Source: an uncultured Sphingomonadaceae bacterium (GTDB lineage Bacteria; Pseudomonadota; Alphaproteobacteria; Sphingomonadales; Sphingomonadaceae). Taken from it: a stretch of 64,000 nt of DNA. Within the stretch, counting starts at the first letter, position 1. The number at the start of each line of letters is the position of its first letter. The notes below the pieces were generated by a model, which made no database searches, had not been told where the DNA came from, and was given only the letters and a program-made list of their open reading frames with translations. Position numbers and translations under genes: made by a program. The DNA is taken from the NCBI GenBank assembly GCA_937995515.1, contig CALKJZ010000008.1:62001-126000 (forward strand), read 5' to 3'. Positions 405-16,731 of this stretch are shown here, piece by piece.

Positions 405-1544
405 CTAGATGTTGAGGAATTGCGCGACGCGCGCGCCGTGGAAGGCGGAATCGCCGAACGTCTCGCCCGCAGCGCGGGCCCGCTTCAGGAAGAAGCCCAT
501 GTCGTGATCATCCGTCATGCCGATCCCGCCCAGCATCTGCACGCCCTCGCTGGTGGCAAGGCGGGCCACCTCGCCGGTCTTGGCCTTGGCGAGCGAGGCA
601 TAGAAGGGCGCGCGATCCTCGCCGGCCTCGAGCGCCCGGAGCGCGCGGATGACGACCGATCGGGCAAGCTCCAGCTCACAGAACAGGTGGGCCGCGCGGT
701 GCTGCAGCGCCTGGAAGCTGCCGATCGGGCGGCCGAACTGTTCGCGGGTCTGCAGATAGTCGAGCGTGATCTCGAAGCTGCGCGCCGCAGCGCCCAGCAT
801 TTCGGCCGCAAGGCACGCGCGCGCGGCATCGAGCGCGGCTTCGAGGAGCGGCAGGCCGGCGTGCAGCTCGCCGATCACGTCCGCGCCGTCGACCTGCACC
901 CCCTCGAGGCGGAGCTCGGCGGCGTTGCGGCTGTCGACCATCGGCCTCCGCCGCACCTCGACACCGGGCGCCTTCGGGTCGACGAGAAACAGGGTGATCC
1001 CGTCCGGGTCGCAATCGCAGCCCCGCGTGCGCGCGGCCACGATGAGGCGGTCGGCCACATGGCCATCGAGCACATGTGTCTTGGCGCCGGAGATGCGGAA
1101 GCCGTTGCCCGAGGGCTCGGCGCGCGTTGCGATGTGGGCGGGCGCGTGCCGCGGCGCCTCGTCGCAGGCGAGCGCAAGGATGGCCGTGCCGGCGGCAATC
1201 GGGGGAAGAAGCGCCTTCTGCTGCTCGGCGCTGCCGCCGCGGCCGACCAGGGTGGCGGCGAGCACGGCCGTGCCAAGAAACGGCGAGAGGGTGAGGTTGC
1301 GACCGATCGCCTCGCTGACGAGGCCGGCCGCCACCATGCCGAGCGCCGTGCCGCCATGTGCCTTGGGGACCAGCACGCCTGCAAAGCCCATCTCCGCCAT
1401 GCCCCGCCACAGGCCGGTCGAAAAGCCCGTCGGGTCGCGGCTGTCGCGCAGGTGCCGAAGCTGGGAGACGGGGCCATGTGCGGCGAGGAAGCCCTCGGCC
1501 GAGCTGCGGATCATCCGCTGCTCTTCGGTGAGAACCAGCGCCAT
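405..1544 (-). CDS. Acyl-CoA dehydrogenase, probable non-catalytic (beta) subunit
   Basis: This 379-residue flavoprotein of the acyl-CoA dehydrogenase fold begins MALVLTEEQRMIRSSAEGF and has the C-terminal YLQTREQFGRPIGSFQALQH helix that contacts FAD. At the place where most family members carry the catalytic base in an EGT motif, this protein reads AAGETFGDSAFH, so the glutamate is not in register. The neighbouring dehydrogenase, which ends only three bases upstream, keeps the base. Pairs like this are known in bacterial steroid and cholesterol side-chain degradation, where two unlike subunits form an alpha2beta2 enzyme. I infer that this one is the structural, FAD-site-completing partner. 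It could still be an active enzyme with a displaced base. Confidence 0.85.
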   Translation of the reverse strand: MALVLTEEQRMIRSSAEGFLAAHGPVSQLRHLRDSRDPTGFSTGLWRGMAEMGFAGVLVPKAHGGTALGMVAAGLVSEAIGRNLTLSPFLGTAVLAATLVGRGGSAEQQKALLPPIAAGTAILALACDEAPRHAPAHIATRAEPSGNGFRISGAKTHVLDGHVADRLIVAARTRGCDCDPDGITLFLVDPKAPGVEVRRRPMVDSRNAAELRLEGVQVDGADVIGELHAGLPLLEAALDAARACLAAEMLGAAARSFEITLDYLQTREQFGRPIGSFQALQHRAAHLFCELELARSVVIRALRALEAGEDRAPFYASLAKAKTGEVARLATSEGVQMLGGIGMTDDHDMGFFLKRARAAGETFGDSAFHGARVAQFLNI

Positions 1545-1547
1545 GGC

Positions 1548-2741
1548 TCAGCCGGCCGCCGGCAGGCGCAGCACCTGCCTTGCGATGATGTTGAGCTGGA
1601 TTTCCGAGGTGCCGCCCTCGATCGAGTTGGCGCGGCTCCTGAGCCATGCCCGCGCCTGGTCGCCCTCGCGACCCTCCCAGCCGAGCGCATCGGTGCCGCC
1701 CAGCGACATGCGGATCTCGTTGCGCTGCTTGTTGAGCTCGGTGCCCACATATTTCAGCATGGACGAGAGCGCCCCCACACCCTCGCCCGCTCGTGCCTCG
1801 TCCTTCACCCGCTCCATGGTCAGGCCGAAGGCGATGGCATCGATCTCGTGTGCAACCACCCGGGCACACAGCAGCGGCTCGGCGCGCAGGCCTCCCTCGC
1901 CCAGCGCCTTCTTCGCCAGCTGCGCCAGCGAGTCCCGGCCCTCGCCGGAAAAATCCATGCCGCCGATCATCTCGCGTTCGTGGGTGAGCAGATATTTGGC
2001 GATCTCCCAGCCCTGCCCGGGCGCGCCGACGAGGTTTTCGCGCGGCACCCGCACATTGTCGAAGAAGGTCTGGCAGAAGGGCGAGGCGCCCGAAATCAGC
2101 TGGATGGGGCTGGTCGAGACGCCTTCGGACTCCATGTCGAAGAGGAGGAACGAAATGCCCTGGTGCTTGGGCGCCGCAGGATCGGTGCGGACAAGGCAGA
2201 AGATCCAGTCGGCCTTGTCGGCATAGCTCGTCCACACCTTGGAGCCGTTGACGACATAATGGTCGCCCTCGAGCACGGCCGAGGTGCGCAGGCTGGCGAG
2301 GTCCGAGCCGGCACCGGGCTCGGAATAGCCCTGGCACCAGCGGATCTCGCCGCGCGCGATCGGCGGCAGGTGCGCCCGTTTCTGCGCCTCGCTGCCATAT
2401 TTCAGGAGCGCGGGGCCCAGCATCCAGATGCCGAACGACGAAAGCGGCGGGCGGGCGCGGATGCGGCGCATCTCGGCGGCAAGCACCCCCGCCTCGGCGC
2501 GCGACAGGCCGCCGCCGCCATAGGCCTTGGGCCACTCGGGCACCGTCCAGCCGCGCGCAGCCATGCGCTCGAGCCAGATTCGCTGCGCATCGGAGGCAAA
2601 GACCCACCTGCGCCCGCCCCAGCAGAGATCCTGGTCGCCGCGCAGGGGCGCACGCATCTCGTCCGGGCAGTTGGCCGCAAGCCACGCGCGCACCTCGGCA
2701 CGGAACGCCGCAAGCCCGGCGTCGTCCACCGGTTCCTCCAT
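1548..2741 (-). CDS. Acyl-CoA dehydrogenase, catalytic subunit
   Basis: This 397-residue acyl-CoA dehydrogenase introduces the alpha-beta double bond in an acyl-CoA and passes electrons to electron-transfer flavoprotein. It shows the FAD/substrate signature GYSEPGAGSDLASLRT and the C-terminal NSIEGGTSEIQLNIIARQ segment, whose Glu is the expected catalytic base. The open frame extends six codons further, but the ATG at 2741 has GGAGGGAGAGG just upstream, so that start was chosen. It is the first gene of the minus-strand acyl-CoA operon, followed by the second dehydrogenase after three bases. The promoter must lie in the roughly 70-base space shared with the divergent lgt gene. Confidence 0.9.
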   Translation of the reverse strand: MEEPVDDAGLAAFRAEVRAWLAANCPDEMRAPLRGDQDLCWGGRRWVFASDAQRIWLERMAARGWTVPEWPKAYGGGGLSRAEAGVLAAEMRRIRARPPLSSFGIWMLGPALLKYGSEAQKRAHLPPIARGEIRWCQGYSEPGAGSDLASLRTSAVLEGDHYVVNGSKVWTSYADKADWIFCLVRTDPAAPKHQGISFLLFDMESEGVSTSPIQLISGASPFCQTFFDNVRVPRENLVGAPGQGWEIAKYLLTHEREMIGGMDFSGEGRDSLAQLAKKALGEGGLRAEPLLCARVVAHEIDAIAFGLTMERVKDEARAGEGVGALSSMLKYVGTELNKQRNEIRMSLGGTDALGWEGREGDQARAWLRSRANSIEGGTSEIQLNIIARQVLRLPAAG

Positions 2742-2811
2742 GGACCTCTCCCTCCGCACTGCCCCTCCCGGGCATGGCGCTTTTGGCGCAGGCCTCCTAA
2801 TGGAGCCGCCG

Positions 2812-3633
2812 ATGCCGTTTTTCCAGCCGCCCGTCGAGTTCGCAAGTCTCGGCCTTGACCCGGTCGCGCTCGAGGTGGGCGCGTTTGCCCTGCGCTGGTA
2901 CAGCCTCGCCTACATCGTCGGCATCCTCGTGGCGTGGTGGCTGATGGCGCGGATGATCCGCCTCAGCCCTGCCCCAATGACGCGGGCCCAGCTCGACGAT
3001 CTCATCACCTGGTCGACGCTCGGCGTGATCGCCGGCGGGCGGCTCGGCTATGTGATCTTCTACGATGCCGGTCGGTTCCTCGCCGATCCGCTCGCCGTCC
3101 TGCGGCTCTGGGAGGGGGGCATGGCCTTCCACGGCGGGCTTGCGGGCGTGATCCTCGCCATCTGGCTCAGCTGCCGCGCGCAGGGTCTGTCGGCCATCCG
3201 CGTGCTCGACCATGCCGCCGTGGTGGTGCCCTTCGGCCTGCTGCTCGGCCGGCTCGCCAACTTCGTGAACGGCGAGCTCTGGGGGCGGACGACGGACGGA
3301 AGCTGGGGCATCATCTTTCCCGAAGGAGGGCCCGAGCCGCGCCACCCCAGCCAGCTCTACGAGGCCGCGCTCGAGGGACTCCTGCTGTTCTTGCTCCTCA
3401 ACCTGCTGTTCTGGAAGACGGACGCACGCCTGCGGCCGGGCCTCCTCGCAGGCCTCTTCGGGCTCGGCTACGGGCTTGCGCGCCTTGTCGTCGAGCTCTT
3501 CCGCGAGCCCGACCCCCAGCTCGGCACGCTGGCAACCGGCCTCACCATGGGCCAGACGCTCTCGCTGCCGCTCGTCCTGGCCGGGGCGTGGCTGGTTGTG
3601 CGCGCGGCGCGGGCCGAGCCGCTGAGCGCGTGA
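2812..3633 (+). CDS. lgt: Phosphatidylglycerol-prolipoprotein diacylglyceryl transferase
   Basis: Lgt is an inner-membrane enzyme that moves diacylglyceryl from phosphatidylglycerol to the lipobox cysteine of prolipoproteins, the first step of lipoprotein maturation. The 273-residue product has about seven hydrophobic segments. The family motifs are present: FHGGLAG with His107, and GRLANFVNGELWGR with Arg147, matching the essential His and Arg of the E. coli enzyme. An ATG also occurs at 2800, but GGAG at 2802-2805 sits at the right distance for 2812, and the protein from there begins MPFFQPPVEFASLGLDP like homologues. It opens a plus-strand chain; its TGA overlaps the GTG of the next gene. 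Confidence 0.95.
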   Translation: MPFFQPPVEFASLGLDPVALEVGAFALRWYSLAYIVGILVAWWLMARMIRLSPAPMTRAQLDDLITWSTLGVIAGGRLGYVIFYDAGRFLADPLAVLRLWEGGMAFHGGLAGVILAIWLSCRAQGLSAIRVLDHAAVVVPFGLLLGRLANFVNGELWGRTTDGSWGIIFPEGGPEPRHPSQLYEAALEGLLLFLLLNLLFWKTDARLRPGLLAGLFGLGYGLARLVVELFREPDPQLGTLATGLTMGQTLSLPLVLAGAWLVVRAARAEPLSA

Positions 3634-4685
3634 TCGCGGCAATCCGCGAGGCGATCGCCGCAGCCGGCGGCGCCCTTCCGCTGGAAGAGGCGATGGCCGA
3701 AGCGGTCCGCCACTATTATGCGGCGCGCGAGCCGTTCGGCCCGGGCGGCGATTTCATGACCGGGCCCGAGATCAGCCAGATGTTCGGCGAGCTGCTGGGG
3801 CTGTGGGTGGCAGACCTCTGGCAGCGGGCGGGGGCGCCCGAACCCGTCTGCCTCGCCGAGCTCGGCCCGGGCCGCGGCACGCTGATGGCCGATGCCCTGC
3901 GCGCGATCGGCAAGGCCGTGCCCGGCCTTGCCCGGGCCGCCCGCCTCCACCTTGTCGAGACCTCGCCGCGGCTGCGCGCCGAGCAGGCCCGGCGCCTGCC
4001 GGGGGCGCAGTGGCACGACCGCCCCGAAGACCTTCCGGCGGGCGTACCGCTCCTCCTCCTTGCCAACGAGTTCCTCGATACCCTGCCCATCATCCAGTTC
4101 GAGCGGCAAGCCCGGGGCTGGACCCGCCGCGCCGTCCGGCAAGACGGCAGTCTCGCGCATCTGCCGGCCGAGCCGGCAGCGCTTCCCGGGCCGGTCCGCG
4201 ACTGGCCGCCGGGCAGCATCTTCGAGCGCCGGCCCGAGGCGGAGCGCCTTGCGGCCACACTTGCCGCCCGCCTTGCGGCAACCGGCGGGGCGGCCCTGTT
4301 CCTCGATTACGGCCACGCCGGCCCGCTTGCCGGCGACACGCTGCAGGCGCTCGCCTCGGGCGCGCCGGCCGACCCGCTGGCAACGCTCGGCGAGGCGGAT
4401 CTGAGCGCGCATGTCGATTTTGCAGCCTTTCTCGAGGCTGCGCGAGGCGCGGCGCCGGTCCGGTGCTACGGGCCGGCACCGCAGGGCGCCTTCCTCCTCA
4501 GGCTGGGAATCGGGGCGCGTGCGGAGGCGCTGAAACGCGGCCGCGACCGGCTTGGGCGCGCTGAAGTCGAAGCCGCGCTTGCGCGGCTGACCGCCACGGC
4601 CATGATGGGCCGGCTGTTCAAGGCCGCAGCCATCGTTGCGCCCGGCTGGCCGGAACCGGCCGGCTTCGATAGGGATGACCCATGA
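3630..4685 (+). CDS. SAM-dependent methyltransferase, MidA/NDUFAF7 family
   Basis: This 351-residue protein matches the family of mitochondrial NDUFAF7 (MidA), which methylates an arginine of a complex I subunit during assembly; bacterial substrates are less well known. It has the N-terminal YYAAREPFGPGGDFMTGPEI block, the SAM-binding loop LAELGPGRGTLM near residues 75-86, and LLANEFLDTLPIIQF, all diagnostic. The GTG start overlaps the lgt stop in a GTGA arrangement, and its own TGA overlaps the next ATG, so translation is probably coupled on both sides. The lgt-MidA neighbourhood is common in alphaproteobacteria. Confidence 0.88.
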   Translation: MIAAIREAIAAAGGALPLEEAMAEAVRHYYAAREPFGPGGDFMTGPEISQMFGELLGLWVADLWQRAGAPEPVCLAELGPGRGTLMADALRAIGKAVPGLARAARLHLVETSPRLRAEQARRLPGAQWHDRPEDLPAGVPLLLLANEFLDTLPIIQFERQARGWTRRAVRQDGSLAHLPAEPAALPGPVRDWPPGSIFERRPEAERLAATLAARLAATGGAALFLDYGHAGPLAGDTLQALASGAPADPLATLGEADLSAHVDFAAFLEAARGAAPVRCYGPAPQGAFLLRLGIGARAEALKRGRDRLGRAEVEAALARLTATAMMGRLFKAAAIVAPGWPEPAGFDRDDP

Positions 4686-6496
4686 CGGATGCCGCATCCC
4701 GCCTCGAATCGCTGCGTGCCGAGCTGCGCGCCCGCGGGCTCGACGGGTTTCTGGTGCCGCTCACGGACGAGCACATGAGCGAGTATGTGGGCGCCTATGC
4801 CCGCCGGCTGGAATGGCTGACGGGCTTCGACGGCTCGGCCGGAATGGCCGCCGTGCTGCCCCATGCCGCGGCCATCGCCACCGACGGCCGCTACAGCCTG
4901 CAGGTGCGCCAGCAGGTGGACACGGCGCTCTGGACAGTGCGCGAGGTGCCGGGCGAGCCGCTCGGGGCATGGCTTGCCGCCGAGGCGCCCGAAGGCGCGG
5001 CCATCGGCTACGACCCGTGGCTGCACACCCGCGCCTTCGTGGCCGAGCAGCAGGCGCTTCTCGATGCGCGGGGCGCGCGGCTGGTGCCAGTCTCCTCCAA
5101 CCCGATCGACTGCCTCTGGGCCGATCGCCCGGCGCCTTCGGCGGCGCCCGCCGAGGCCCATCCGCTGCGCTTTGCCGGGCGCACCAGCGCCGACAAGCGC
5201 GCCGCGATTGCGGCAGGCCTGCGCGCACAGGGGCTCGATGCGGCGGTCATCGCCGCGCTCGACAGCGTGGCCTGGCTCTTCAACATCCGCGGGCGCGACG
5301 TGCCGCGCACGCCGGTGGCAAGGGCCTTTGCCGTGCTGGCCGCCGATGGCTCGGCGACCCTGTTCGCAGACCCTGCAAAGGTCGGCGAAGCGCTGCGCGA
5401 CGAACTCGGCCCGGATGTCGCCATCGCGCCCTATGCCGAGATTGGCACAGCGCTCGGGCGGATGACGGGCGCCCGTGTGCTGCTCGACCCGGGCTTCTCG
5501 GTTGCCGCCATTGCCGACGCACTGGAGGCCGGCGGGGCGCGGATCGTCTGGGGGCGCGATCCCTGCATCCTGCCCAAGGCCATCAAGAACGACACCGAGA
5601 TCGCGGGCGCCCGGGCCGCGCACCGGCGCGACGGACTGGCGCTGTGCCGTTTTCTTGCCTGGTTCGACTCCGAGGCGCCGAAGGGCGGGCTGGACGAGCT
5701 TTCCGCCGCGGCGCGGCTGGAGGCTTGCCGGCGCGAGACGGGCGCGCTTGTGGATCTTGCCTTCGACACCATCTCGGGATTCGGGCCCAGCGGCGCCATC
5801 ATCCACTATCGTGCCAGCCCCAAAACCGCCCGGCGGATCGTGCCCGGCGGCCTCTACCTTGTCGATTCGGGCGGCCAGTATCCCGACGGGACAACCGATG
5901 TCACCCGCACGGTCGCCGTCGGCCAGCCGCCGCGCGAGGCCATCCGCGCCTTCACGCTAGTGCTGAAAGGGCATATCGCGCTTGCCACCGCCCGCTTTCC
6001 TAGGGGCACGCGCGGCGGCCAGCTCGACGTGCTCGCGCGCCAGCATCTGTGGGCGGCGGGGCTCGACTATGCGCATGGCACCGGCCACGGAGTCGGCAGT
6101 TTCCTGAGCGTGCACGAAGGCCCGCAGCGGATCGCCGCGGCCGCCGGTGCGCCGGGCATCGAGGAGCCGCTGCTGCCTGGCATGATCCTTTCGAACGAGC
6201 CGGGCTTCTACCGCCCGGGCGCGTTCGGGATCCGCATCGAGAACCTCGTGCTCGTGATCGAGGATCCGCAGCCGGGCGACGAACGCGCGATGCTTGCCTT
6301 CGAGACGCTGACGCTTGCGCCCATCGACCGGCGCCTCATCGAGCCCGGGCTTCTGACGGATTTCGAGCTGGCCTGGCTCGACTGCTACCACGCCCGCGTG
6401 CGCGCGGCCCACGCGCCGGACCTCGACGGGGCTGACCGCACCTGGCTCGAGGCTGCCACGGCGCCGCTTGCCACAGAGGCCGCCAAGGCGGCGTGA
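4682..6496 (+). CDS. pepP: Xaa-Pro aminopeptidase (M24B metallopeptidase)
   Basis: This 604-residue aminopeptidase P-type enzyme removes the N-terminal residue before a proline, using two metal ions. It has the three-part layout of long AMPP proteins: two creatinase-like N-terminal domains (about 1-320) and a C-terminal pita-bread domain. The metal ligands are visible: Asp in YLVDSGGQY, Asp in GTTDVTRT, His in GTGHGVGSFLSVHEG, Glu in ILSNEPGFY and Glu in IRIENLVLV. The start ATG overlaps the previous stop (ATGA), and the end overlaps the GTG of the next gene. There is no signal peptide, so it is cytoplasmic. Confidence 0.93.
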   Translation: MTDAASRLESLRAELRARGLDGFLVPLTDEHMSEYVGAYARRLEWLTGFDGSAGMAAVLPHAAAIATDGRYSLQVRQQVDTALWTVREVPGEPLGAWLAAEAPEGAAIGYDPWLHTRAFVAEQQALLDARGARLVPVSSNPIDCLWADRPAPSAAPAEAHPLRFAGRTSADKRAAIAAGLRAQGLDAAVIAALDSVAWLFNIRGRDVPRTPVARAFAVLAADGSATLFADPAKVGEALRDELGPDVAIAPYAEIGTALGRMTGARVLLDPGFSVAAIADALEAGGARIVWGRDPCILPKAIKNDTEIAGARAAHRRDGLALCRFLAWFDSEAPKGGLDELSAAARLEACRRETGALVDLAFDTISGFGPSGAIIHYRASPKTARRIVPGGLYLVDSGGQYPDGTTDVTRTVAVGQPPREAIRAFTLVLKGHIALATARFPRGTRGGQLDVLARQHLWAAGLDYAHGTGHGVGSFLSVHEGPQRIAAAAGAPGIEEPLLPGMILSNEPGFYRPGAFGIRIENLVLVIEDPQPGDERAMLAFETLTLAPIDRRLIEPGLLTDFELAWLDCYHARVRAAHAPDLDGADRTWLEAATAPLATEAAKAA

Positions 6497-7596
6497 CGCA
6501 GGCAAACGGCCGCTTCCGCCTGCCCGGCAGCGCGCCGGCGTGGACCCTGGCCGCGCCGGGCGCCGCCCTTCTCGTGCTGTTGCTGTTCGGCCTGCACGGC
6601 AGCGGCGCGCCGGCCGACACCGGCCTGCGCTTGCTCGTACTGTTCCCCGTCGTGCTGGCAGCGGTCCACCACGCCGAGGTGATCGCGCTCCGGGTCGGCG
6701 AGCCGTTCGGCACCCTTGTCCTTGCCCTGTCCGTCACCGTCATCGAGGGCTCGCTCCTCGTCACGCTGATCCTCGCCAACCCCGCCGCGACGACCACGCT
6801 GGTGCGCGACACCGTCTATGCTGCAGTGATGATCATCCTCGCGGGCGTGGTGGGGCTGTGCATCACCTTCGGCGCGGCGCGCCACTATGTGCAGAGCTTC
6901 GGCCTCTATGGCGTCTCGGCTGCCTGCGCGACGCTTGCCACCCTGGCAGTGCTGGTGCTGGTGCTGCCCAACTTTACCACCTCGACTGGCGGGCCCACAT
7001 TCTCCGACGCCCAGACCATCATGATCGGGGCCGCCGCCCTCATCCTCTATGCCCTGTTCGTCTTCATCCTCACCATCCGCCACCGCGACTATTTCCTGCC
7101 GGCCACCGAAGCCGAGGCGCACGCGGATTTTGCCGTCTCGAACGCGCAGGCCGGCCTTGCCTTCGCGCTCCTTTTTGCAAGCCTTGTCCTCGTGGTGCTG
7201 GTCGCCGAAAGCCTCTCGACACCGCTCACGCGCCTCATCGTCGAGCTCGGCGCGCCGGCCTCGGCGCTTGGCGTGGTGATCGCCTCGATCGTGCTGCTTC
7301 CCGAATCGCTTGCAGCCGTGCGCGCAGCGCGCGCCAACCGGCTGCAGACGAGCCTCAACCTCGCGCTCGGATCGGCGCTTGCAACCATCGGCCTCACCGT
7401 GCCGCTGGTCCTGTTCCTCTCGGTCGCGCTCGGCTGGAACCTCGTGCTCGGCCTTGCGCCCAAGGATGTCACCCTCCTCATCCTCATCCTGCTGGTTGCC
7501 TCCATGTCGCTCGGCACCGGGCGCACCACCGTGCTGCAGGGCGCGGTCCACCTCGTGATCTTCGCCGTGTTCCTTTTTACCGCCTTTCTGCCCTGA
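6493..7596 (+). CDS. Calcium/proton (or sodium/proton) antiporter, ChaA type
   Basis: This 367-residue CaCA-superfamily exchanger has about eleven hydrophobic segments. It shows the two internal repeats of the family: GEPFGTLVLALSVTVIEGS in the first half and SALGVVIASIVLLPESLAA in the second, each with the acidic residue needed for cation transport. The overall pattern resembles E. coli ChaA, which expels Ca2+, Na+ or K+ in exchange for protons at alkaline pH. The GTG start overlaps the preceding stop (GTGA). Cation specificity cannot be decided from sequence. Confidence 0.87.
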   Translation: MTQANGRFRLPGSAPAWTLAAPGAALLVLLLFGLHGSGAPADTGLRLLVLFPVVLAAVHHAEVIALRVGEPFGTLVLALSVTVIEGSLLVTLILANPAATTTLVRDTVYAAVMIILAGVVGLCITFGAARHYVQSFGLYGVSAACATLATLAVLVLVLPNFTTSTGGPTFSDAQTIMIGAAALILYALFVFILTIRHRDYFLPATEAEAHADFAVSNAQAGLAFALLFASLVLVVLVAESLSTPLTRLIVELGAPASALGVVIASIVLLPESLAAVRAARANRLQTSLNLALGSALATIGLTVPLVLFLSVALGWNLVLGLAPKDVTLLILILLVASMSLGTGRTTVLQGAVHLVIFAVFLFTAFLP

Positions 7597-7659
7597 ACGA
7601 TCACGCGCGCGTCATCGAAGCCTGCCAGTCTCGGCCGTCCCTCGAACAGGAGCTCCACG

Positions 7660-8454
7660 ATGACCGATTCGCCTGCCGCCCCCCGCCCGGGCATCGCATT
7701 CACGCCCGTCTCCGGCCTCGGGCCCCGCGACCGGCGGATGTCCGTCGAGGCGCTGCTGCCCGTTCTCGGCGACCTGCACATGCTGTGGCTGAAGGCCCAC
7801 GCCGTGCACTGGAACGCCGCCGGGCCGCTGTTCCGCGCTGTCCACGCCCAGACGGAAGAGCTCTACCGGGGCATCGCCGGCCAGTTCGACGACGTGGCCG
7901 AGCGCATCCGCGCGCTCGGGCTCCGGGTGCCGGCAAGCCTCGAGGCGCTGCAGGAACTGACCTCGATCCCCGATGACGAGGATGAACCGGAGTCGACGGT
8001 GGCCATGGTCGGGCAGCTGCTGCGCGACATTGGCACGCTCTGCCAGACGCTGCGCGCAGCCGCCGACGAAGTGGACGACGCCGAGGACGAAGCCTCCGAG
8101 GGCCTGCTGCTCGACATGCTCGCCTTCCACGAAAAGCAGGCGTGGATGCTGCAGATGCTGGTGGCCGACGATGGCCCGGGCGTGCCGCTCGACCTCGACG
8201 GGGACGAGGAGGAGGACGAGGAGGAGGACGACCTCGACGACGGCTCGGACGGGGACGACGAAGGCGAAGGCGACGACGACGAGGACGAGGACGACGAGGA
8301 CGAGGACGACGAGGACGAGGACGACGAGGACGGCGGCGAGGGGGATGCGCCCTCCTCCGGCGCGGCCGGGGAGCCGCCTGCTGCTTCGGCAGGGGGCGAC
8401 GCGGCCGGGGAGCCTGTTTCGGACGCGGAGGCCGCCACCCGCGCTGCGGCCTAG
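7660..8454 (+). CDS. dps: Dps-family ferritin-like protein with long acidic C-terminal tail
   Basis: The first ~170 residues are a Dps four-helix domain, which oxidises and stores iron and protects DNA from peroxide. The ferroxidase residues of E. coli Dps are matched by His50 (AVHWN), His62 (AVHAQ), Asp77 and Glu81 (FDDVAER). Typical Dps is 150-190 residues; this one has 264, because residues 178-229 form an almost uninterrupted Asp/Glu tail, then an Ala/Gly/Pro-rich end. Part of the tail is encoded by a 15-base tandem repeat. Such a tail would repel DNA rather than bind it and could concentrate cations, so its role may be iron handling more than nucleoid compaction. AGGAG at 7648-7652 supports the start. 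Confidence 0.85.
   Translation: MTDSPAAPRPGIAFTPVSGLGPRDRRMSVEALLPVLGDLHMLWLKAHAVHWNAAGPLFRAVHAQTEELYRGIAGQFDDVAERIRALGLRVPASLEALQELTSIPDDEDEPESTVAMVGQLLRDIGTLCQTLRAAADEVDDAEDEASEGLLLDMLAFHEKQAWMLQMLVADDGPGVPLDLDGDEEEDEEEDDLDDGSDGDDEGEGDDDEDEDDEDEDDEDEDDEDGGEGDAPSSGAAGEPPAASAGGDAAGEPVSDAEAATRAAA
8275..8331 (+). repeat. 15-base tandem repeat inside the dps acidic tail
   Basis: About 3.8 copies of a 15-base unit coding for the pentapeptide DDEDE lie in frame in the C-terminal tail of the Dps-like gene. Because 15 is a multiple of three, gain or loss of a unit would lengthen or shorten the tail without a frameshift. It is probably the product of slippage; I see no spacer structure or flanking genes to suggest anything mobile. 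Confidence 0.85.
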
Positions 8455-8498
8455 CGGCAGCGCCGCAACCGGGTGGCGCGCTCTGCGGCCGGGCGGGG

Positions 8499-9374
8499 CT
8501 AGCGCGGCGCGCGCCAGCCGGTCTGCCGCGACACCTCGCCCCAGAGGCGCGCGGCCAGCTCCCGGGCGACCGGGCCCGGGGTGCCGCTCCCGACGGGTGC
8601 GCCATCGAGCCTTGTTGCCGGCAGCAGCGGGCCGGTGGTGGAGGTGAGGAACAACTCCTGCGCCCTGCGGGCCTCGGCGAGCGTGAAGGCGCGCTCCTCG
8701 ACGGGAAGGCCGGCACCGCGCGCAAGCTCCAAGACCGTGTCGCGCGAGACCCCGGGCAGGATCGCCGCCGATAGCGGGTGGGTGCGGAGCACGCCGTCCG
8801 GCCCCACCATCCAGAGGTTGGTAGAGGCGCCCTCGGTCACCACGCCGTCCTCGGTGACGAACAGCGCCTCGAAGGCCCCGGCCCGGCGCACCTCCTCCTT
8901 GGCGAGCACGGCGGCAAGCAGGTTGGTCGACTTGATGTCGCACCGCTTCCAGCGCTGGTCGGGCAGGCTGAGGAGCGCCACCCCGGTCTCCTGCTGCCGG
9001 ATGCGCTGGGCAAAGTCGAATCGCCGCGCGGTCATCACCAATGTCGGCGCGACACCATGCGGAAACGGATGGTCACGCCGGCTGCTGCCGCGGCTGGCCT
9101 GCAGGTAGAGAAGGCCGTCGGGCAGCCGGCTCTGGCGGATGAGCCGCCGGGCGCGCGCGGCGATCACCGCTGGCGAGGGCAGGCCCGCAAGGCCGATGGC
9201 TGCCGCGCCGCGCTCAAGCCGCCAGAGATGCTTGTCCCAGTCGAACAGCCGGCCGTTCAGAAAGGCGACCACCTCGTAGAGGGAATCGCCGAACTGGAGC
9301 CCGCGATCCTCGACGGCCACGCGCGCCTTGCCGATCGGGAAGGCATGGCCGTTCACCAGGGCGCGGGCGCTCAT
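8499..9374 (-). CDS. D-amino-acid transaminase (class IV aminotransferase)
   Basis: This 291-residue fold-type IV PLP enzyme most resembles D-alanine aminotransferase, which interconverts D-alanine and D-glutamate for peptidoglycan. It has the PLP lysine in KRCDIKSTNLLAAVLAKEE and the EGASTNLWMV motif that binds the cofactor phosphate; RCDIKS is the form usual in D-alanine transaminases rather than in IlvE or PabC. The frame is open upstream, but the ATG at 9374 gives the expected MSARALVNGHAFPIGKARV start. It converges with the dps-like gene and diverges from the photolyase 95 bases away. Confidence 0.87.
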   Translation of the reverse strand: MSARALVNGHAFPIGKARVAVEDRGLQFGDSLYEVVAFLNGRLFDWDKHLWRLERGAAAIGLAGLPSPAVIAARARRLIRQSRLPDGLLYLQASRGSSRRDHPFPHGVAPTLVMTARRFDFAQRIRQQETGVALLSLPDQRWKRCDIKSTNLLAAVLAKEEVRRAGAFEALFVTEDGVVTEGASTNLWMVGPDGVLRTHPLSAAILPGVSRDTVLELARGAGLPVEERAFTLAEARRAQELFLTSTTGPLLPATRLDGAPVGSGTPGPVARELAARLWGEVSRQTGWRAPR

Positions 9375-9469
9375 GCGCACTGCCTTGCCGCAAGCCCGCC
9401 GGCTGTCAAACCCGGCAGCGGCCAGCGGCCGCGCTTGAGCTTGGCACGGCCTGCGCGCATCAGCGCCGC

Positions 9470-10813
9470 ATGGCTCGCCCACAGATCCTCTGGTTCCGGC
9501 AGGACCTGCGCCTCGCCGACCAGCCGGCGCTTGCCGGAGCACAAGACGCCGGCCCGATCATCCCGACCTACATCCTCGACGATGCCTCGCCGGGCCTGCG
9601 GCCGATGGGCGCGGCCTCGCGCTGGTGGCTGCACCGGAGCCTCGAACGCCTCGATGCGGCGCTCGCGGCGCGCGGGGCGCGCCTGCTGCTGCGCCGGGGC
9701 CGCTCGGCCGACGTGCTCTGCCAGCTGATGGAGGAGACCGGCGCCGAGGCGATCCACGCAACGCGGCACGCCGAGCCCTGGTGGGGGCCGATCGAGGCCC
9801 GCCTCGGCAACCGGCTGCGGCTGCACGGCGCCACGCGGATGCTCCGCCCCGGACAGGTGAGAACCGGGTCCGGCACGCCCTACCGGGTGTTCACGCCCTT
9901 CTGGCGCGCCAGCCTTGCCCACCTCCCCCCGCCGACCCCGGCGCCGGCGCCCGCGCGGCTTGCGGGCGCGGCGCCGCCGGCCGGCGACCGGCTGACGGAT
10001 TGGGGCCTCCTGCCGCAGAACCCGGACTGGGCGCGCGGCTTTGCCGAATGGCAGCCGGGCGAAGCCGGGGCAGAGGCGGCGCTTCGGGCCTTTCTGTCGC
10101 GGGTCGAGGCCTATGCGGCGCGGCGCGACCTCCCCTCCGAGCCGGGCACCTCGCGCCTGTCGCCGCACCTCCATTTCGGCGAGATCTCGCCGGCTGCCGT
10201 GTGGCACGCCGTCGAGGCGGTGGCAGGCCCGCAGGCGGCACAGCCCTTCACCCGCCAGCTGGTGTGGCGCGAGTTCGCCCACGAGCTCCTCGCCCAGTAT
10301 CCGGACGGCCACGAGCGGCCGCACCGGCCGGAGTTCGAGCGCATGCCCTGGACCGACACCGAGCAGGGCGAGGGCCGGCGCTGGCTGCGGGCCTGGCAGA
10401 AGGGGCGGACCGGCTATCCGATCGTCGATGCGGGCATGCGCCAGCTCTGGCAGACCGGCTGGATGCACAACCGCGTGCGGATGATCGTCGCCTCCTTCCT
10501 CACCAAGCATCTGCGCATCGACTGGCGGACAGGCGAGCGCTGGTTCTGGGAGACGCTGGTCGATGCCGACCTCGCCAACAATGCGATGGGCTGGCAGTGG
10601 GTGCTGGGCTCGGGAGTCGATTCCCAGCCCTATTACCGCATCTTTGCGCCGGTCGCGCAGTCGGAGAAGTTCGATGCGCTGGGCTACATCCGGCGGTTCG
10701 CCCCCGAATATGCCGGGCATGGGCCGGTCAACCCGATCGTCGAGCACGGGGCGGCACGCGCGGCCGCGCTTGCTGCGTGGCAGGCGCTGCGCGCGCCGGG
10801 CCAGAGGGGCTGA
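9470..10813 (+). CDS. phrB: Deoxyribodipyrimidine (CPD) photolyase
   Basis: This 447-residue class I photolyase repairs cyclobutane pyrimidine dimers with blue light, using FAD and an antenna chromophore. It has the N-terminal Rossmann antenna domain (ILWFRQDLRLADQPAL) and the C-terminal FAD domain with EFAHELLAQYP, AGMRQLWQTGWMHNRVRMI, DADLANNAMGWQWVLGSG and PYYRIFAP. The Asn-rich LANN segment near FAD N5 is typical of DNA photolyases rather than plant cryptochromes. It is monocistronic and divergent from the transaminase. No clear SOS box (GTTC-N7-GTTC) is seen upstream. Confidence 0.94.
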   Translation: MARPQILWFRQDLRLADQPALAGAQDAGPIIPTYILDDASPGLRPMGAASRWWLHRSLERLDAALAARGARLLLRRGRSADVLCQLMEETGAEAIHATRHAEPWWGPIEARLGNRLRLHGATRMLRPGQVRTGSGTPYRVFTPFWRASLAHLPPPTPAPAPARLAGAAPPAGDRLTDWGLLPQNPDWARGFAEWQPGEAGAEAALRAFLSRVEAYAARRDLPSEPGTSRLSPHLHFGEISPAAVWHAVEAVAGPQAAQPFTRQLVWREFAHELLAQYPDGHERPHRPEFERMPWTDTEQGEGRRWLRAWQKGRTGYPIVDAGMRQLWQTGWMHNRVRMIVASFLTKHLRIDWRTGERWFWETLVDADLANNAMGWQWVLGSGVDSQPYYRIFAPVAQSEKFDALGYIRRFAPEYAGHGPVNPIVEHGAARAAALAAWQALRAPGQRG

Positions 10814-13571: not shown

Positions 13572-14435
13572 ATGCCAACAGATGCACCCGGATCCTTCGA
13601 CCGCTTTCTTGCCATCGACTGGTCGGGCGCGCGCGGGGCCCGGCACCCCGGCATTGCGATTGCCGAGGCGCTTCCGGGCGATGGCCCGCCAACCCTTCTT
13701 CCGCCGCCCGACCGGCGGGGCTGGTCGCGCCCCGAGGTGCTTGAGCTGCTTTCCGGGCTTTCCGGCCGGTGGCTTGCCGGCTTCGACTTCTCCTTCGCTC
13801 CGCCGTTTGCGGCCCGCGGCGCCTATCTGCCCGGAACAGAGGCGCCCGATACCGGGCCGGCCTTCTGGGCGTGGCTCGATGCGCAATGCCCCTGCCCGGA
13901 TCTGTCCGCCCATGGCTTTCTCGAGGGGAAGGGCCGCAGGCACATGTGGACGGGTGCCGCCGATGGCCGCAAGGCAGACTATCTTCACTTCCGGGTGTGC
14001 GAGCAGCGGTTCAACGCCGCCGGCGGCGGCAAGCCCTCCACCGTGTTCGACCTTGTGGGCGCCGCACAGGTGGGCAAGGCGAGCTTTTCCGGCATGCGGC
14101 TGCTCAACCGGCTGCGCGCGCACGCCGCAATCTGGCCATTCGAACCGCCCGCGCCCGGTCGCCCGCTGGTGGTCGAGATCTATACCCGGCTGTTCCTGCG
14201 CGAGGCCGGCGGCAGCGGCCGGAAGCTGCGCGACCGGGCGGCGCTTGACCGCGCGCTCGAAGCCCTCGGCAGCCGGCCCTGGGCGGGCTCGGCCCCGCTC
14301 AGCGACCATGCAACCGATGCGCTGGTCGCAGCCGCCGGGCTGCGCCGGCTTGCGGGCGAGCGGGTGCGCTGGGCCCCTCCGGGCCTTACCGAGGCCGTCG
14401 CGCTGACCGAGGGCTGGACGTTCGGCATCCTCTGA
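13572..14435 (+). CDS. DUF429-like protein (predicted RNase H-fold)
   Basis: This 287-residue protein has no assured function. FLAIDWSGAR near residue 12, WLAGFDFSFAPPFA near 68, and the late SDHATDALVAAAGLRRLAG match the pattern of DUF429, a predicted RNase H-like nuclease family with spaced acidic residues. It is soluble, with no signal peptide. It begins 15 bases upstream of the divergence region shared with the GH19 gene and is followed after 14 bases by the transporter gene. Whether it cleaves nucleic acid is not shown by sequence alone. Confidence 0.65.
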   Translation: MPTDAPGSFDRFLAIDWSGARGARHPGIAIAEALPGDGPPTLLPPPDRRGWSRPEVLELLSGLSGRWLAGFDFSFAPPFAARGAYLPGTEAPDTGPAFWAWLDAQCPCPDLSAHGFLEGKGRRHMWTGAADGRKADYLHFRVCEQRFNAAGGGKPSTVFDLVGAAQVGKASFSGMRLLNRLRAHAAIWPFEPPAPGRPLVVEIYTRLFLREAGGSGRKLRDRAALDRALEALGSRPWAGSAPLSDHATDALVAAAGLRRLAGERVRWAPPGLTEAVALTEGWTFGIL

Positions 14436-14449
14436 GCCACGAACGCCCG

Positions 14450-15535
14450 ATGGGCGAGGGCCGACCGCATCTCCGCCCCGTGCGCCCGCGGGCGGATCTC
14501 GTCGGCGTGGTGCAGGTGGCCGATCTCTTCGGCGACATCGGGCCGACCCCGCGCCGCCGCTGGCAGGATCTCGTGCCCGGGCTCGGCGTTGCGCTGCTGG
14601 CGCTCCTCGCGGCGGCCTTTCTCGCTGGCCGCTATGGCGCCCCGCTGCCGCTGATGGCGCTGCTCGTGGGGCTTGCGCTCAACGTTCTGGGCCCCGACCC
14701 GCGGCTCACCCCCGGTCTCGGATTTGCCGCGCGCGAGCTGCTGCGGCTTGCCGTCATCCTGCTCGGCGCGCGCATCACCTTCGCGCAGGTGGGCGAACTC
14801 GGCCTTGCCGCGCTCGGCGCGGTGCTGCTGGTAATGGCCGCCGGCCTCGGCGCCGCGCTGCTGCTCGCGCGCTGGCAGGGCGCGGGAGGCTGGTTCGGGC
14901 TTCTGGCCGGCGGCGCAGTCGCCGTCTGCGGCGCCTCGGCCGCGCTTGCGCTTGCCGCCGCGCTTGGGCCGCGCCGCGCCCCGCCCGGGCAGCTGGCCGC
15001 GGTGCTGGTGGCTACCGCCGGCCTCAGCGCGCTCGCCATGGTAGCCTGGCCGGCGGTTGCCCATCTCACCCGGCTGAACGACCTGCAGGCGGGCTTCCTG
15101 TTCGGCGCCGCCATCCACGATGTCGCCCAGGCAATCGGCGCGGGCTTCGGCTGGAGCGCGGCGGCAGGCGAGGTGGCAACCGTTGTCAAGCTGGCCCGGG
15201 TTGCGCTTCTGGCGCCGCTGGTGGGGCTGGCCGTCGTGCTCGTGCGGCGCACCGGCGAGGGGCCGGGCGGCCGGGCGGAGATCCCATGGTTCGTCGGCGG
15301 CTTCCTCATCCTCGTGCTGCTGAACTCGGCCGGGCTCTTGCCCCGGCCGCTGGCCGCCGGCGCCGCGGCCGCCTCCTCCTGGCTGCTGGCACTGGCGGTT
15401 GCGGCAACGGCCATGCGTGCGCCGCTTGGCGAGCTGCGCCGGGCTGCGGCCGCGCCCCTCATCGTGGGCAGCGGCGCGACGCTTGTGGCCCTTCTCGCCG
15501 CGCTCGCAGCCGCGCGGCTCTTGTTCCGGAGCTGA
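14450..15535 (+). CDS. YeiH/UPF0324-family membrane transporter (putative sulfate exporter)
   Basis: This 361-residue protein has about ten transmembrane segments. It matches the YeiH (UPF0324) family by LLRLAVILLGARITFAQVG, the glycine-rich GGAVAVCGASAALALAAAL loop, and FGAAIHDVAQAIGAGFGWS. Members are annotated as putative sulfate exporters on thin evidence. The first ~35 residues are polar and precede the first membrane span. It lies 14 bases after the DUF429-like gene and may share its transcript. Confidence 0.8.
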   Translation: MGEGRPHLRPVRPRADLVGVVQVADLFGDIGPTPRRRWQDLVPGLGVALLALLAAAFLAGRYGAPLPLMALLVGLALNVLGPDPRLTPGLGFAARELLRLAVILLGARITFAQVGELGLAALGAVLLVMAAGLGAALLLARWQGAGGWFGLLAGGAVAVCGASAALALAAALGPRRAPPGQLAAVLVATAGLSALAMVAWPAVAHLTRLNDLQAGFLFGAAIHDVAQAIGAGFGWSAAAGEVATVVKLARVALLAPLVGLAVVLVRRTGEGPGGRAEIPWFVGGFLILVLLNSAGLLPRPLAAGAAAASSWLLALAVAATAMRAPLGELRRAAAAPLIVGSGATLVALLAALAAARLLFRS

Positions 15536-15559: not shown

Positions 15560-16360
15560 ATGACTGGAAACCTCACCTGGCAGGAAGCTGCAAAACGCAT
15601 CCTCGAGAAGGAAGCCAGGCCCCTCCATTTCACCGAGATCGCCGATCTCATCCTCGAACGGGGGCTGAAAACCACGGTGGGGGCAACGCCCGCGGCAACG
15701 GTCGGCGCCCAGCTTTACACGCTTGCCAAAAAGCCGGACAGCCCGGTCGAGCAGGTGGGCAAGGGCGTTTTCCGCCTGCGGCCGCAGGCAGGCGGGCCTG
15801 CCGGCAGCGATCGCAAATCGATGCCGGACGACTCATCGGCCGGAGCGGACGAGCCCCTGCTCGGCGACGGCGGGCTGCTGCGGGCCTTCGGCATGTTCTG
15901 GCAGCGCGACCAGGTGATCTGGGACGGCAGGGGCCGTCTGCTCGGGCAGCAGCGTGCCGAGGCGAAGCCTGTCGACTTTGCCGGTCAGGTCGGGGTCTAT
16001 CTCCTCCACGACCGCGACCGGGTCGTCTATGTCGGACGGGCATCAGATTCACTTTTCAGCCGGTTGCGCGCGCACACGGCCAACCGCCTTTCGGGCCGCT
16101 GGGATCGGTTCTCCTGGTTTGGCCTCAAAGGTGTCGACCCGGAGAGCGGCGCCCTTGCAGACCCGGCCGAGGCCTGTTCGCCGCGCGTCGTGCTCGAGAC
16201 GCTCGAGGCGCTGCTGATCGAAAGCCTCGAGCCACCCCTCAACCGGCGCAGAGGCGATGGCCTCGATGCGATCGAATATGTTCAGGTGAAGGATCCGGAG
16301 ATCGAGAAGCGGCGCCAGAAGGACCTTCTCGACATGATCAGGACCAGGGCGGGGCTGTGA
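15560..16360 (+). CDS. HARE-HTH domain fused to GIY-YIG nuclease domain
   Basis: Residues 5-75 form a HARE-HTH domain (LTWQEAAKRILEKEARPLHF, then GATPAATVGAQLYTLAKK and GKGVFRLRP), a winged-helix module known from ASXL proteins, RNA polymerase delta and some restriction enzymes. Residues 143-230 look like a GIY-YIG nuclease: GVYLLHD, VVYVGRAS, Arg168/Arg170 in RLRAH, Glu213/Glu217 in VLETLEALLIE, and Asn228 in PPLNRR. All catalytic positions of that fold appear filled. The combination suggests a DNA-binding nuclease for repair or defence. Its stop overlaps the start of the fluoride-channel gene (GTGA). The exact role is unknown. Confidence 0.75.
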   Translation: MTGNLTWQEAAKRILEKEARPLHFTEIADLILERGLKTTVGATPAATVGAQLYTLAKKPDSPVEQVGKGVFRLRPQAGGPAGSDRKSMPDDSSAGADEPLLGDGGLLRAFGMFWQRDQVIWDGRGRLLGQQRAEAKPVDFAGQVGVYLLHDRDRVVYVGRASDSLFSRLRAHTANRLSGRWDRFSWFGLKGVDPESGALADPAEACSPRVVLETLEALLIESLEPPLNRRRGDGLDAIEYVQVKDPEIEKRRQKDLLDMIRTRAGL

Positions 16361-16731
16361 TTGCCATGCTGCCGGTCCTTCTCGTTGCGGCAGGGGGCGC
16401 CATCGGGTCGGTCGCCCGCTACGGGGTCTACCGCCTCACGGGCGCGGCCGGCTGGCCGTGGCCCACCTTTCTTGTCAACGTGGCCGGCGGACTCCTGATG
16501 GGCCTTGTGACGGGCTGGCTGCTCGCGCGCGGCGGGCCCGAGCCGGTCCGCCTGTTCCTCGGTGTCGGCGTGCTGGGCGGCTTTACCACCTTTTCGGCCT
16601 ATTCGCTCGATATCGTCGCGCTGATCGAGCGCGGCGCCTGGGGCGCGGCGATCCTTTATGCGCTTGCCTCGATGATCGTCGCGGCGCTTGCGCTCGCCGC
16701 CGGCCTGTGGCTCGGGCGGATGCTCACATGA
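16357..16731 (+). CDS. crcB: Fluoride ion channel CrcB/Fluc
   Basis: This 124-residue protein has four transmembrane helices and forms a dual-topology dimer that lets fluoride leave the cell. Family motifs are GGAIGSVARYGVY at the start, TFLVNVAGGLLMG with the pore Asn, and GGFTTFSAYSLDI with the Na+/F- site residues. The GTG at 16357 overlaps the previous stop; an ATG at 16366 is an alternative. No fluoride riboswitch is possible here, as the gene is buried in an operon and coupled on both sides (its TGA overlaps the rluC ATG). Confidence 0.93.
   Translation: MIAMLPVLLVAAGGAIGSVARYGVYRLTGAAGWPWPTFLVNVAGGLLMGLVTGWLLARGGPEPVRLFLGVGVLGGFTTFSAYSLDIVALIERGAWGAAILYALASMIVAALALAAGLWLGRMLT

Follow-up and report, generated by a model that had tools for sequence, protein, structure and literature searches.

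The plan of a DNA-reading domain joined to a GIY-YIG nuclease is itself known. Ahi29725I and Apa233I are described as wH-GIY-YIG type IV endonucleases that depend on Dam methylation, except at a high dose of Apa233I (PMC11037411). CMoRE, or PD-T4-3, is reported to be a single-component GIY-YIG enzyme that cuts DNA carrying 5hmC or 5ghmC (PMC12923530). Fusions of an EVE domain to GIY-YIG are predicted type IV enzymes (PMC7641849). In Dnd and BREX neighbourhoods, HARE-HTH domains are reported to be fused to a PD-(D/E)XK REase and have been proposed to discriminate modified DNA (PMC10853773, PMC12839542).

The gene at 15560-16360 on the forward strand of the window (the whole 64 000-nucleotide stretch analysed) begins with ATG and encodes a predicted HARE-HTH/GIY-YIG endonuclease of 266 aa. 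In common with the wH-GIY-YIG enzymes, this protein combines a winged-helix type reader with a GIY-YIG domain, and methylase genes are rarely adjacent; their reader is DpnI-like, however, and that of the window protein is HARE-HTH, a comparison of domain layout (PMC11037411). According to the same source, HARE-HTH has an extra inserted helix relative to the DpnI-like wH and more likely senses cytosine modifications. DpnI (4kyw) appears in the Foldseek list for the whole model as a weak match, E 0.41. CMoRE is likewise a single-component protein in which GIY-YIG is accompanied by a second domain, with a flexible linker and a patchy distribution across classes, but there the nuclease comes first, the reader is without known homologues and a GIYxY motif and an acidic loop are present (PMC12923530). 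The window family differs from it in having a C-terminal nuclease and, at residue 149, the position of the second Tyr of GIYxY, a Leu in 81 of 81 aligned rows. The HARE-HTH-PD-(D/E)XK proteins share the proposed modified-DNA reader joined to a nuclease, but that nuclease has another fold and its genes lie in Dnd or BREX clusters, whereas the window gene stands alone. EVE-GIY-YIG fusions likewise couple a modified-base reader to GIY-YIG, with a reader of another fold. The N-terminal GIY-YIG domain of UvrC gives a profile match with the catalytic residues in register, but UvrC is a nucleotide excision repair component with other domains.

On sequence grounds, the window family appears to be a reader-GIY-YIG fusion in which HARE-HTH takes the place of the reader. 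A literature search whose scope stopped short of the founding HARE-HTH paper found no description of HARE-HTH joined to GIY-YIG. The abstract of Aravind and Iyer 2012 reportedly names diverse restriction endonucleases, and the fusion may already have been noted there.

The first-pass annotation had read this frame as a HARE-HTH domain followed by GIY-YIG, with both motifs complete, and both domains are supported here. Residues 6-74 (15575-15781) match PF05066 with E 2.4e-17 and 63.5 bits in a Pfam search, well over the curated cut-off of 25.9, which makes the domain a member of the HARE-HTH family; all 80 rows of alignment A1 match this profile at E<=0.01. The whole-protein model has a mean pLDDT of 86.8, with blocks of residues 11-70 at 94-98, and the N-domain resembles linker-histone winged helices (VIA-align Z up to 9.8). 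A low-confidence, probably flexible linker follows (residues 79-101, 15794-15862, pLDDT < 50). The nuclease domain extends over approximately residues 109-242 (15884-16285), from the C-domain model m6ef165ddf666 and from hhalign comparison with UvrC-type domains. A C-terminal helix is assigned by DSSP on the predicted model to residues 246-264 (16295-16351). All of these features lie on the forward strand.

Standard annotation does not see the nuclease motifs, and curated models miss this half of the family. The profile search that upheld the HARE-HTH domain left GIY_YIG_2 below the Pfam cut-off (16.4 bits vs 22.4), and no NCBIfam model matched the window protein over its cut-off, the best being UvrC at 11.3 bits. 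Among the A1 rows, GIY_YIG_2 was matched by nine of 80 and PF01541 by three of 80 at E<=0.01. The residues themselves are strongly conserved. In the GIY element, G145-V-Y147 (15992-16000), Gly145 is invariant in all 81 rows, window copy included, and Tyr147 is present in 80; in the YIG element, Y157-V-G159 (16028-16036), both Tyr157 and Gly159 are invariant. The catalytic Arg168 and, four residues on, His172 (16061-16075) are each found in 81/81, as is the metal-binding Glu216 (16205-16207), which aligns with the UvrC-type glutamate. Asn228 (16241-16243), aligned with the UvrC-type Asn, is kept in 80/81. The Arg, Glu and Asn that the first-pass annotation had proposed to check are in place, and Y147, Y157, R168, H172, E216 and N228 occur in the order of a GIY-YIG catalytic set. 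A family signature, RWDRFSWFG (residues 180-188, 16097-16123), is invariant at every position in the 81 rows; a single change, Asp to Thr, is seen in the viral-labelled copy L162.

Profile comparison points in the same direction, as do weak structural matches. The C-domain profile matched six UvrC-type GIY-YIG domains at 93.2% (hhalign E 2.9e-7, which is not a database E-value), with GVY, YVG, Glu and Asn in register, against 0.2-0.4% for the N-domain and 4-33% for three reversed decoys. The references were these six, assigned to the UvrC type from the length of their frames, and a second set of 23 (out of 24) small GIY-YIG references, which matched the C-domain at 80% over 36 columns. Compared with one another, the two sets reached only 8%, showing the comparison to be insensitive, so that a low value would have meant little. 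Since the winged helix filled the fold search with the whole model, the C-domain was modelled separately (mean pLDDT 88.9). Its three best PDB matches in Foldseek were chains of a UvrC GIY-YIG domain, none reaching E 0.001. VIA-align gave Z 4.8 for 2LWF, 4.4 for RimK, 4.1 for UvrC, 3.8 for T4 EndoII, 3.1 for Hpy188I and 2.3 for Eco29kI; 2LWF is described as the GIY-YIG domain of At-GRXS16 (PMC9071465, PMC5890173). The presence of five GIY-YIG proteins in one short list favours a GIY-YIG fold, although every Z is low. A sequence search of solved structures returned no convincing match for the window protein. Among weak viral matches, the names GIY-YIG and endonuclease were frequent.

The fusion defines a genuine family. 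Of 254 pattern stretches in the genome collection, 211 were confirmed, and the best 80 of the 211, which are 41-53% identical to the window protein, were kept; the 79 of these that were aligned all match HARE-HTH. One of the 80, L060, whose open frame begins at residue 35, is included in the 81-row alignment and left out of A1; alignment A2 comprises 56 of the 80 A1 rows and four solo copies. Nineteen phylum labels, one of them archaeal, occur among the 76 of 80 loci that carry a label, many of which are metagenome bins with possibly misplaced contigs. On the tree, these labels need 33 changes, against a least possible 18 and a shuffled mean of 42.7, and none of 200 shuffles was as low. The labels are thus clustered, yet with much apparent exchange between phyla. 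On the tree, the window copy falls together with six further proteobacterial copies, of which five are alphaproteobacterial (99*), and its source therefore need not be distant. Of 398 genomes sampled from the window's phylum, 10 match at E<=1e-20, among them the genome of the window; these ten matches include a solo nuclease domain and a copy split in two. A search with only the nuclease domain gives 12 of the 398 at E<=1e-6. None of 58 nearer relatives, four of the same genus among them, has a full-length match, and one has a 40-residue match. In one locus of the family (L046), a stretch of 24 residues at 15630-15824, about 7 kb from the intact gene, matches the nuclease in its C-terminal part (62.5%) and is perhaps a remnant of a second copy.

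Relatives are also found on mobile elements. The 8.9-kb plasmid pDMC2 encodes a full-length relative, 34% identical over 93%. Because this relative is labelled as an HTH protein only and the curated libraries miss the nuclease half, current annotation conceals the family in part. A viral-labelled contig has a full-length copy beside a recombinase-like ORF (by eye), the one such copy in two viral scans. Two Synechococcus phages have solo nuclease relatives, as does a prophage-like contig, there beside a terminase-like ORF recognized by eye. A note on one phage relative had raised the idea of an integron cassette, which was rejected: an attC-like site followed the gene in one of 80 loci, against none of 80 shuffles, the 80 being those of 84 loci with enough downstream sequence (four had too little), and none was found in the window. 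In genome G232 a solo nuclease domain adjoins an N6_N4_Mtase-domain gene. The order there, over about 491-10037 of locus L115, is 277- and 728-aa ORFs, the latter without a known domain, a 302-aa ORF, the N6_N4_Mtase gene, the solo GIY-YIG gene and a stretch that looks helicase-like by eye; this gene row is a possible restriction operon.

The protein thus combines two domains with an intact catalytic set, and its gene stands alone and has a patchy spread. We consider it probable, at roughly 60%, that it is a one-component, modification-dependent restriction endonuclease (type IV-like) acquired horizontally, since the reader-plus-nuclease layout, the lack of a recurrent methylase partner, the patchy spread and the kept catalytic set all fit such an enzyme. 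The copies next to hsdR in L061 and next to hsdR remnants in L062 (both described below), those on a plasmid and a viral-labelled contig, and the solo nuclease domain adjoining a methylase gene in G232 also count in favour of this reading. DNA cutting, its dependence on a modification and a role in defence are inferred. In such an enzyme, duplex DNA with a foreign mark would be bound by the HARE-HTH winged helix at the N-terminus, and the C-terminal GIY-YIG domain, given reach by the flexible linker, would cut close by, presumably by the usual metal-dependent GIY-YIG mechanism through Tyr147, Tyr157, Arg168, His172, Glu216 and Asn228. Host DNA would be spared without a cognate methylase, as the host would lack the mark or its context. 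The first-pass annotation had suggested recognition of modified or structured DNA. The former is plausible by analogy with the wH-GIY-YIG enzymes and CMoRE, modification reading by bacterial HARE-HTH domains being itself a prediction; for the latter no support was obtained.

The distribution of methylases bears on which mark might be read. C5 methylases were found in 13 of 31 carriers and 83 of 150 phylum genomes, and Dam over its cut-off in four of 39 and 16 of 150, respectively (nine of 39 and 30 of 150 for Dam-like matches at the looser E<=1e-20), in a comparison where carriers come from many phyla and controls from one and where C5 was searched in 31 of 80 carrier loci. No avoidance of 5mC or Dam methylases by carriers was seen, and a blanket cutter of Gm6ATC or 5mC is therefore unlikely. 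If Gm6ATC were its target, the enzyme would put the four carriers of a Dam-family gene at risk of self-cutting, barring regulation or a different target of that methylase. Published accounts of the HARE-HTH ligand differ between 6mA and cytosine marks (PMC8885841, PMC11037411), and the HARE-HTH domain of ASXL was called uncharacterized in 2024 (PMC11161652). A natural HARE-HTH-nuclease fusion of 266 residues would turn the question of this ligand into a cutting assay. A bolder version of the proposal, in which a so far unrecognised, phylum-spanning one-gene immune nuclease uses HARE-HTH to read phage DNA hypermodifications not made by hosts, is possible but must be regarded as speculative; if true, it would provide a biochemical ligand for HARE-HTH, a domain also present in human ASXL proteins.

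Clustering of 1110 predicted genes from 85 loci revealed no neighbour family in more than five of them, with a crude gene caller that took the longest ORFs. This supports the earlier description of a small stand-alone nuclease well, as do the two domains and the kept catalytic residues. PADLOC gave no significant match to the window protein (best E 0.016). It was also run on 245 of 247 predicted genes within two positions of the nuclease (145 and a further 100) and on all 117 that lay six or more positions away within 8 kb, using a purpose-made gene caller, with Pfam also run on the 145. The models matched numbered 108, 206 and 84 for the 145, 100 and 117 genes, respectively, totals that give no per-gene rate because one protein can match many models. 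Among the strong matches listed near the gene were type I R, M and S subunits, Cas8c, Cas3 and a reverse transcriptase; among those listed farther out were DpdF, SspH, AbiE and methylases. The search for defence-island neighbours thus yielded defence genes in single loci and no rate that would show enrichment. As a general setting, a defence island is neither shown nor excluded by these scans. In Acidithiobacillus concretivorus (L062), remnants of the 3' part of hsdR are visible at 7741-7974 beside the kept nuclease. From 44 hsdM-like matches in approximately 127 Mb of 31 carrier genomes, 0.17 would be expected in 0.49 Mb of flanks and two were seen, a post hoc count that is suggestive only, as one of the two is the query itself.

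Some of these neighbours would suit an ordinary restriction nuclease, accessory to an R-M system, whose HARE-HTH reads unmodified sequence while the chromosome is shielded by a methylase that the host encodes elsewhere. The gene of Acidithiobacillus sulfurivorans (L061) begins 2 bases past the hsdR stop of an hsdM-hsdS-hsdR operon, a related type I system, its HsdM 70% identical, lies 3.4 kb from the nuclease in locus L005, and the solo copy of G232 adjoins its methylase gene. Yet the 85 loci show no methylase family recurring next to the gene, and the copy of A. concretivorus, 97% identical to that of L061, is kept with mere hsdR remnants preceding it, in a genome with other hsdM-like genes elsewhere. 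The window genome, searched for two methylase families, gave no match to PF00145 or to Dam. We regard an R-M accessory as unlikely.

An endonuclease of the mobility or homing type, one that furthers its own spread or acts for phages or plasmids, would account for the dispersal across phyla, the plasmid copy, the viral-labelled copy next to a recombinase-like ORF and the solo relatives in phages and prophage-like contigs. Against this, the 85 loci differ in their surroundings and both attC-like sites and full-length viral copies are rare, and this explanation is improbable. It is equally improbable that the protein is a DNA repair or structure-specific nuclease with UvrC-like chemistry, as might be argued from the likeness of its nuclease domain to UvrC-type domains and from a photolyase-like ORF at 9470-10813 in the window (by eye): the gene is missing in full length from the 58 nearer relatives, unlike a core repair gene, and the window genome has its own GIY-YIG domain in a 655-aa, UvrC-sized frame. 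RNA polymerase delta likewise contains a HARE-HTH domain, and Foldseek lists an RpoE entry (E 0.36), which would suit a DNA-binding regulator whose nuclease domain is dead or incidental. Conservation of the catalytic residues across phyla makes such a regulator very improbable.

Horizontal gain, the second element of the modification-dependent endonuclease reading, is suggested by the patchy spread, by the label changes on the tree and by the structure of the locus. In the window, a gene for a YeiH-type (PF03601) membrane protein (14450-15535, forward strand, E 3.7e-49) and the nuclease gene lie between a conserved upstream gene and crcB (16366-16731, forward strand, E 4.1e-26), the conserved right border of the inserted segment. 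The exporter-like gene and fluoride channel named earlier as neighbours are therefore correctly placed. The order crcB-rluC-HAD is kept in four same-genus genomes, and no yeiH-type gene was found in their crcB loci, which reach up to 1.5 kb on each side. The junction is closed in G001 and G002, the conserved upstream gene being closely followed by crcB, rluC and the HAD gene, and in G004 the spacer is about 0.3 kb. An ORF with a PEP-CTERM-like C-terminus, recognized by eye, occupies the same junction in G003 (L088, about 2008-2661), which indicates that the site accepts different genes. Most simply, the yeiH/nuclease segment is a gain at a site that took another gene too. The GC content of the nuclease gene is 66.2%, compared with 70.8-76.1% for four neighbouring genes and 71.3% for the window. 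The gene is set within a row of housekeeping genes, which counts against the modification-dependent endonuclease reading.

A further gene in the window, at 13572-14435, encodes 287 aa and has no Pfam match at E <= 1. It adjoins crcB in eight of 13 loci from other related genomes (loci of up to 1.5 kb either side), with 37-63% identity, and the start of its product, IDWSGA, resembles by eye an RNase H-fold motif.
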